The position numbers were made by a program, and so were the translations under genes. Positions 1,189-4,100 of a stretch of 64,000 nt of DNA are shown piece after piece. Positions within the stretch are counted from its first letter, which is position 1, and each line of letters starts with the position of its first letter. This DNA comes from Rhodothermales bacterium (lineage in GTDB: Bacteria > Bacteroidota > Rhodothermia > Rhodothermales > VXPQ01): positions 1 through 64,000 of the forward strand of contig JAJDWX010000030.1 in the NCBI GenBank assembly GCA_022825385.1, read 5' to 3'. Below the pieces are notes generated by a model. It had not been told where the DNA came from. It worked only from the letters and a program-made list of their open reading frames with translations, and made no database searches.

Positions 1189-4100
1189 ATGACAAAACCC
1201 GATTTGACCAGTCAGCCCGAACCAGATTTTAACTCGCAAGAAATTATTGCAGCGGCTATCGCAAAAACAGCCGAGATGAATCCACAGAAGACCAATGGAG
1301 AATGGCTTGAAGTCGTCACGGTGGAATCCGGCCCATGCATCAAGGAATGGGACATCAAAGCATGCTGGCGTTGGGACGAATGGCCGAATAGAGAGACGCG
1401 CTTTCCCAACACCACCAGGTTAGACGTAGGGATAGACGCCGTAGCCGTGCGTCGCAGCGATGGGGAGCACATCGCAATACAGTGCAAGTCGCGGCAGCTG
1501 AATGAGGAAGGGCATGGTTCTTCAATTAACAATAATGAAATAGCCAAGTTCGCTGCGGCGTCCGCCGCAGACTTCTGGGCCGAGCGCTGGATCGTCACGA
1601 ACGGAAACAATCCACTGGCCAGCGGGGCAAAGCAGTCGGCGTCTATGCATGGAAAGCCCCTTAAACTGGTCAATATCACCTACGACCTGCACGAGCAGTG
1701 GCAGGCGGACGCCGTCCGGGAAGCGGAGGAATGCGAGCGCTGCGCGAATAAGGGTAAGGAGGATGCGATTCAGTCGAAATCCTCCATGCAGAACGAAGCC
1801 GTCGCCCACAGCGTACGCATACTCAAGGAACAGGAATCTTCCGAGAGCGGCGGACTGCCTGTGGGCGAGGCGCGCGGAAGAATCATTCTTCCCTGCGGAA
1901 CGGGGAAAACCCGCATATCGCTTCGGATTATAGAAGAACTGACGCCTCCGGGAGAATTGTCCATCGTACTGTGTCCGTCTATAGCGCTGGTCGCCCAGAT
2001 CAGGCGTGAATACCTGCAAAACGCCACGGTTCCGATAGACGTGCTGGCAGTCTGCTCGGACGTTACGGCAGGGTACGACCCCAAAAAAGAAGGCAAGCGC
2101 AACGCCACGCTGGACCCAACGGTCGACAACAGCAATGTCAGCGCATCCGAGGTCAAGGGCCGGGTGACGACGGACGCCGAGGAAATAGCCGACTGGATGC
2201 GCCCGCCCGCCCGCCTGCAGAGAGAGAGAGAGAGAGAGAGAGAGAGAGAGAGCGTCGTCAAGGTTCTCATTGGTACGTACCAGAGCAGCGCCAGGGTATC
2301 TGAAGCCCTCCTGAGCGCCGGCGTTAAAGCGCGCGTGGTGGTTGCGGACGAAGCGCACAGAACCGCGGGACTAAAGCGTACAAACGCGACATCCGCTGCT
2401 TCAAACGCAGCAGAAAAGCGTTTGCGCGACTTCACGGTTTGCCACGACAACGACCGGTTTCCCGCAGCCTGTCGCGTCTATCAAACGGCTACGCCACGCA
2501 TATACGACGCCAAACGCGCCAGCGGCAATCCAGACTGGATAGTCCGCTCGATGGACGACGAAACCACCTTCGGAGTGGAACTTTATCGGAAGAGCTATCT
2601 GGAAGCCGTCCGCAACCGCTGGCTGTCCGATTACCGCATCATCGCCATGGGCATCAACGACCCGGATGCGTTCGAGACGGCGAACATTCTGGCGAAGCAC
2701 ACCCGGAGCAAGGGACGCGGCAAACTTACGACCACGGACTATCTTCGCGGCCTGGCGTTCGCGCTCACGATGGGAGGAGCCACCCAGGGCGAAGAAGTGG
2801 ACATCAGGTCGTGCATCGCCTTTATGAACACGGTGGACAAGTCCAAAAACATGGCGGCGGACCTCCAGACCGAAAAGGTAAAAAAATGGGTCTCCAGGTG
2901 GCTCGAAGAGAATGCGGACGGCAGGGCGGCATCCAATTACAGCCTGGAACACCTGGACGCTTCGAGCAACGCCGCGGCGCGCGAAACCGCAAAGGAACGG
3001 CTTGCCGCCGCCGACGCAGAGAATCCGCACGGCGTCATCAATGTAGGCATCTTCGGAGAAGGCACCGATTCGCCGTCGCTGAGCGCGGTAGCCTTTCTTG
3101 AAGCCCGCAAGAGTCCCATTGACGTCGTGCAAGCCGTCGGGCGGGCGATGCGAACGGCGCCCGACAAGGAGATGGGCTACATCGTCTGCCCCATTCTGAT
3201 TCCGCCGACCGCCGACCCAGAAAAATGGCTGAGCAACAGCGATTCCGAAGAGGGGTGGCAAGAACTTGGGCAGATACTGCTCGCGCTGCGCGCCCACGAC
3301 CAGCGCATCGAGGAGAATCTTGAAGAACTGCTCCACCTGTACATTCCCAAGCCGCCCCGGGTCGAGCGAACATTCGTTGCGGTCGCCAAGGGCGAAGCCC
3401 GGCGCATACAGTACGGCGAAGTCGAAGGCCCTCCCGGCGCCGCGCAGGAAGCAGTCGAACAGGCATTGCAAGACAAGAGCTTCGCCAAGGCCGGGATACG
3501 ACGCATTGGGGAAGCGCCTGTCAGTAATGGCACGACGGACCGGCCCCCTGGGGTTCGGTACGAAAATCCCGTGGCGCCCGGGGAAAACCTTGTCAAAGAA
3601 ACGCCCGCGCCATACCGCGTGGCGGAAATAACGCAGGTCTTAACCGGAAAGAAAAACGACGACGGAAGCATTGAACTGCGCGCGGACTCCGTTGCGCGCG
3701 ACAAGCCGAAAGCGGGCGAAGCCCGGGGCGTCGTGAACATCAACAAGACCAAGGCCAAAGCGAAGAAGATGATCAATACCGGCGAGGGCGGCATTCGCTT
3801 GCAGCCGGGCGGACATCGCAAAAAAGGTAAAACCGCAAAAGAGCGGGCAGAGGAAAAGGGCCAGTTAATGCTCAAATTGAGCGGCCTGGAAGACTACGGC
3901 AGCGCCATCAAAATGAACCTGCTGGCGAAGTCCGGGCTGAGCGACAATCGCGTGATGCGCGATTTGAACATACTGGAATCGAGCGTCAGCGAAGCCGCGC
4001 ACCACATGCGCGCCGATGCGCTGCTGCACGTACTGAACGAGCATTTAGGCCTGGACAGACTCAAAAAGACGGACAAAAAGCAGGCAGACGGCTGCACCGT

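Follow-up and report, generated by a model that had tools for sequence, protein, structure and literature searches.

A probable AG-repeat switch in a single-chain, type ISP-like restriction-modification gene of a Rhodothermales bacterium

We think it likely that P0001, the 1713-residue product of a gene at positions 1189–6330 (forward strand) of the 64,000-nucleotide stretch of Rhodothermales DNA analysed here (the window), is a single-chain ATP-dependent restriction-modification (R-M) enzyme whose expression would be turned on and off randomly through slipped-strand mispairing at a run of 17 AG units within its own coding sequence. The chain combines nuclease, translocase, methylase and specificity parts and is read here from a chosen ATG, the frame staying open upstream to a GTG at 1078. 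The tract, (AG)17, occupies 2219–2252 on the same strand in the context ...CTGC-(AG)17-CGTC..., is pure over its 34 bp, has a unit that is not a multiple of three, and encodes residues 344–355 as repeating Arg-Glu between helicase motif I (GTGKT, residues 237–241) and motif II (DEAH, 387–390). With 17 units the frame is open throughout, so that the gene is ON as assembled; the first-pass annotation had read the tract, its place between the two motifs and its frame correctly. Its larger proposal, that this is a phase-variable switch, is also supported by the comparisons that follow: tracts recur at different sites among relatives, several frame-broken relatives are interrupted precisely at their tracts, and broken copies remain under purifying selection. 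Taken together, these sequence comparisons support an ON/OFF slippage switch as the best explanation.

The expectation for (AG)17 is 0 in dinucleotide-preserving shuffles of the window, and the iid expectation for AG runs of at least 10 units is ~3e-6 across the 3.02 Mb genome. When variants of the gene were translated in silico, 14, 17 and 20 units gave the full-length protein, and all other counts tried (13, 15, 16, 18, 19 and 21) led to a stop at 368–377 amino acids, with a predicted product that retains nothing beyond the nuclease domain and helicase motif I. In living cells, then, mispairing would alter the number of units at random; 17 units, or any count that differs from 17 by a multiple of three, would yield the full chain, with host sites methylated and unmodified DNA restricted, and a change of one or two units would truncate the chain at ~370 residues, so that the methylase and specificity parts would go in their entirety, together with most of the translocase. 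It had been suggested at the outset that a single unit gained or lost would have this effect, and the stop after ~370–375 residues bears that out, the nuclease and motif I staying behind. Downstream re-initiation may occur in the OFF form. The first-pass annotation also took the joint loss of methylation and cutting to be safe for the cell; this may hold less well than supposed, as the nuclease domain would persist in the OFF form and a return from OFF to ON would meet an unmethylated chromosome. We infer both the enzymatic activity of P0001 and the existence of its recognition site, and the benefit of switching would presumably be a form of bet-hedging, in which phage defence is set against the costs of restriction or of lost DNA uptake, possibly with methylation-driven gene regulation as a further gain.

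Which kind of enzyme would be switched is best judged one half at a time. Along the forward strand, an Mrr-type (PD-(D/E)XK) nuclease domain at 1354–1665 (residues 56–159; Pfam PF13156, E 2.7e-11), predicted to persist in the OFF product, is followed by a superfamily 2 translocase at 1783–3156 (residues 199–656; PF04851 and PF00271) with motif I (GTGKT) at residue 237, motif II (DEAH) at 387, motif III (TATP) at 433 and motif VI (QAVGRAMR) at 648; the Mrr-type nuclease, ResIII and Helicase_C are the Pfam matches in the protein, and the best PADLOC model covers residues 57–711 only. This half belongs with the type ISP enzymes LlaGI and LlaBIII, which share its single-chain build of Mrr-type nuclease and superfamily 2 translocase: LlaBIII (E 3e-44) and LlaGI (E 9e-44) are its sole sequence matches in the PDB, over residues 77–723, and LlaBIII is the best fold match for the predicted structure of residues 1–720 (E 2e-25). 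Records of plasmids match P0001 in the nuclease-translocase half alone, none of them spanning 80% of the protein.

The other half is different. Adenine-methylase motifs run from DLACGSG (residue 1125) to NPPF (residue 1270) at 4561–5007, and together with the methylase folds they place in this chain the methylase that a type ISP enzyme should have. Unlike LlaGI and LlaBIII, P0001 matches neither the ISP coupler (PF22240) nor the type ISP C-terminal specificity domain (PF18135) in Pfam, families that are both present in the two ISP paralogues on contigs C5 and C20 (L128 and L129) and in the relative L130. A profile comparison of its C-terminal half with those of 17 canonical ISP enzymes gave an alignment confined to the surroundings of the NPPF motif, with a probability of 4%, and a PDB sequence-profile search with this half gave no match. 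The predicted structure of residues 715–1713 resembles BrxX/PglX, BpuSI, CamA and M.BseCI ahead of LlaBIII, a similarity of fold only, at 10–13% identity and from a model with mean pLDDT 69; BrxX/PglX and the type IIG methylases, for their part, presumably lack a nuclease-translocase half like that of P0001. The region at 5419–6327 (about residues 1411–1713, boundaries approximate) is presumed to recognise the target, given its position after the methylase and the fold matches to methylases with specificity domains. Canonical type ISP membership is thus ruled out for the C-terminal half, both by the absent ISP families and by the lack of a meaningful profile match, and the initial label 'type ISP-like' holds in the nuclease-translocase half and finds no detectable canonical ISP homology in the methylase and specificity half. 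Since only the former matches LlaGI and LlaBIII, P0001 counts as type ISP-like, its methylase/specificity half being of another kind.

The tract itself sits in an accommodating place. It forms an insertion of ~11 residues that is absent from all 30 aligned long homologues (53–79% identical), in a loop segment that is variable in every one of them, and in the predicted structure residues 342–353 have pLDDT below 50 and lie between a helix (330–337) and a strand (357–363). This is what would be seen if the AG run were a neutral microsatellite, grown by chance where Arg-Glu is tolerated and never kept as a switch, its frameshifts being rare and simply deleterious. A variable, length-tolerant loop fits that account, as do the intact mismatch repair of this genome and a run of 21 AG units that a congener carries in an amine oxidase-like gene (L132), which shows that such tracts also occur outside defence genes. 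Even so, we consider it improbable, in view of where tracts are found both in the wider family and elsewhere in this genome.

The family was surveyed in 47 homologous loci of public genomes. Their titles mention Gemmatimonadota, Chloroflexi/Dehalococcoidia, Gammaproteobacteria, Poribacteria and Acidimicrobiia, among other groups, and many of the record names, as we read them, resemble sponge or coral metagenome bins. Across different phyla these loci (L042–L088) encode proteins 72–80% identical over their best segments, which suggests wide horizontal transfer. Five of the 47 carry long tracts in the gene: L071, with (AG)13, and L078, with (AG)14, are frame-broken exactly at the tract, L086, with C11 twice, is broken exactly at one of its tracts, and L079, with (GA)15, and L055, with G10, are open; a sixth locus, L085, has G13 just upstream of the gene. 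The sites vary and include the stretch that separates nuclease from helicase, the beginning of the frame directly behind the start codon, the methylase and the C-terminal region; the ON and OFF lengths with a break at the tract were seen in homologues of other species at positions unlike that of P0001. Such independent recurrence argues against a neutral origin, and so does the density of tracts: with a 160-nt margin upstream included, gene DNA holds 7 of them in 220 kb, far more densely than the flanks, where 437 kb holds 1 (p = 0.003). Against switching, about 40 of the 47 members have no long tract, so it does not characterise the family as a whole. In a control set of 20 canonical ISP loci of the same phylum, a long G/C or dinucleotide tract occurs once (L180, G11, OFF).

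Broken genes invite a second reading, namely that the tract-broken copies are pseudogenes and that P0001 is itself heading for inactivation. OFF states are indeed common among the tract-bearing ISP and ISP-like genes (L071, L078, L086, L128, L129, L136 and L180), and some homologues without tracts are broken too (L069, L072 and, by an insertion, L070). P0001, by contrast, is open over 1713 codons with all of its motifs and has a dN/dS of 0.13–0.14 against its relatives, and the OFF genes tested are otherwise intact. They remain under purifying selection, with dN/dS of 0.19–0.23: the OFF ISP gene on contig C20 gives 0.23 against its congener, and L078 against L079 gives 0.19 before the broken tract and 0.22 after it, so that constraint of about 0.2 persists downstream of the break. 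Purifying selection in out-of-frame copies speaks against simple decay, which we hold to be very unlikely, and the same result in several OFF-phase relatives weighs against a neutral microsatellite.

The genome that contains P0001 is rich in comparable arrangements. Both of its other single-chain ISP genes bear repeats and read OFF: the one on contig C5 is out of frame at both of its tracts, a G11 within the nuclease domain and a (CGAA)12 within the specificity domain, and the one on contig C20 has C11, also out of frame, soon after a candidate ATG; in the related genome G093, the specificity-domain loop that holds (CGAA)12 in the C5 gene carries (AG)11 instead. A type III mod gene carries (GA)21 in frame, and an hsdM gene is apparently split between contigs C36 and C38 at an AG run of at least 44 units, a join suggested by the complementary N6_Mtase matches of the two pieces. 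All three loci with at least 10 AG units in this genome are therefore R-M genes, again unlike what a neutral microsatellite would predict. Counting poly-G/C runs of at least 10 together with AG runs of at least 10 units, there are about 33 long-repeat loci, of which about 10 fall within, or at the beginning of, genes for R-M or other defence (Pfam and PADLOC) and six in large proteins with Calx-beta or secretion-tail domains; ten defence loci would arise by chance with a probability of ~3e-6 if 5% of genes were defence genes, a background that was assumed, not measured. The abundance of poly-G was dropped as evidence in its own right, some 29 runs of at least 10 being expected under an iid model of this composition, and for that reason only the location, conservation and length differences of the runs were used.

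Contig ends at long repeats also raise the question of whether the true length of the AG run, and hence its frame, is unlike the assembled one. A long AG run does terminate both C36 and C38, and an interrupted C-rich run closes C1. At P0001, though, the run of 34 bp is shorter than ordinary reads and has unique flanks, and homologues agree with the open assembled frame to either side of it, so that an assembly artefact seems to us scarcely credible.

Several observations on the remaining tracts deserve mention in their own right. G/C runs of at least 10 number 33 in this genome (G000) and 31 in its congener G001 but only 4, 8, 0 and 0 in G002–G005 of the same genus (g1), so the tract-rich state is species-specific. 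On the contig of the window lies an HmaB-like methylase gene (G000:C35:103356; L158:4358–4368) in which G11, in frame, encodes the glycines of the cofactor motif (DPFAGGGAIPLEAQRLG); its congener orthologue (L192) has G12, out of frame. Poly-C runs at the starts of unrelated genes share a lead-in, ATG...AATAG-C(n), read as Met-x-Asn/Asp-Ser-Pro-Pro-Pro (L129:6743–6753; L136:5813–5824; L140:4305 and 6903; L159:5559 and 14621), possibly as a portable leader, a promoter element or the outcome of convergence. Poly-G/C runs stand at the 5' ends of large Calx-beta proteins (L143, L151, L152, L153 and L159 in G000), three of which have secretion-tail domains, and the tract-bearing proteins of this kind are candidate phase-variable surface proteins. 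A C12 run (L137:4300–4311) lies close to where the open frame begins in the gene of a DruE-like helicase, whose upstream part may sit in another frame, and at the end of contig G000:C1 about 100 nt of C with interruptions (L138:4308–4410), in the frame of a DrmMI-like methylase, may be a sequencing artefact.

Differences in length could be followed among the congeners, at one genome per species and in genes other than P0001, none of the five congeners having a close orthologue of it. Of eight poly-G/C tracts shared with G001 and having matching flanks, six differ in length and two are equal (examples of the former being the C20 ISP gene, C11 here and C12 there, and HmaB, G11 and G12), with the caveat that assembled homopolymer lengths may be off by one. 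Loss of mismatch repair was ruled out as the cause of the tracts, because MutS and MutL are present and intact; by the same token slippage in dinucleotide runs should be dampened, and the rate at which (AG)17 switches may be modest.

How does such a switch compare with known systems? The type IIG enzyme of Campylobacter jejuni NCTC11168 that is known to be phase-variable has a poly-G tract and, unlike P0001, is not fused to a translocase. As in the switch proposed here, it is an R-M enzyme that varies, and its switching is reported to alter methylation and gene expression (PMC4889913). An AG tract in an R-M gene is known from the type III mod gene of MmyCI in Mycoplasma mycoides, which is in frame and active with 10 units and out of frame and inactive with 12 (PMC3498834), although there the system is a two-gene type III one and here a single chain holds four functions. 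The type ISP cluster HP0667–HP0669 of Helicobacter pylori is likewise frameshifted, methylase activity coming back after correction of the frame, but its frameshifts, unlike the tract-bound breaks described here, are not due to sequence repeats (PMC3936762). In the open-access literature on phase variation with type ISP, LlaGI and sponge symbionts, our search turned up no account of ISP enzymes switched by repeats.

Most known examples of phase-variable R-M are type I, III and IIG systems in pathogens associated with animals. The comparative evidence would extend it to ATP-dependent single-chain translocating enzymes in several phyla, and the presence of differing repeat units at differing sites suggests repeated selection for switchable restriction. 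A broader picture, which we regard as about evenly poised between right and wrong, is that in this genome many unrelated defence genes (the three single-chain ISP and ISP-like enzymes, type I hsdM, type III mod, the HmaB methylase, the DruE-like helicase and further methylases) and surface adhesins each have a slippage tract of their own, that ISP and ISP-like enzymes in several phyla gained theirs independently, and that each cell would express a random combination of active defences. With about ten further candidate switchable defence genes in this one genome, the shuffling of defences within a population would become something that can be measured.
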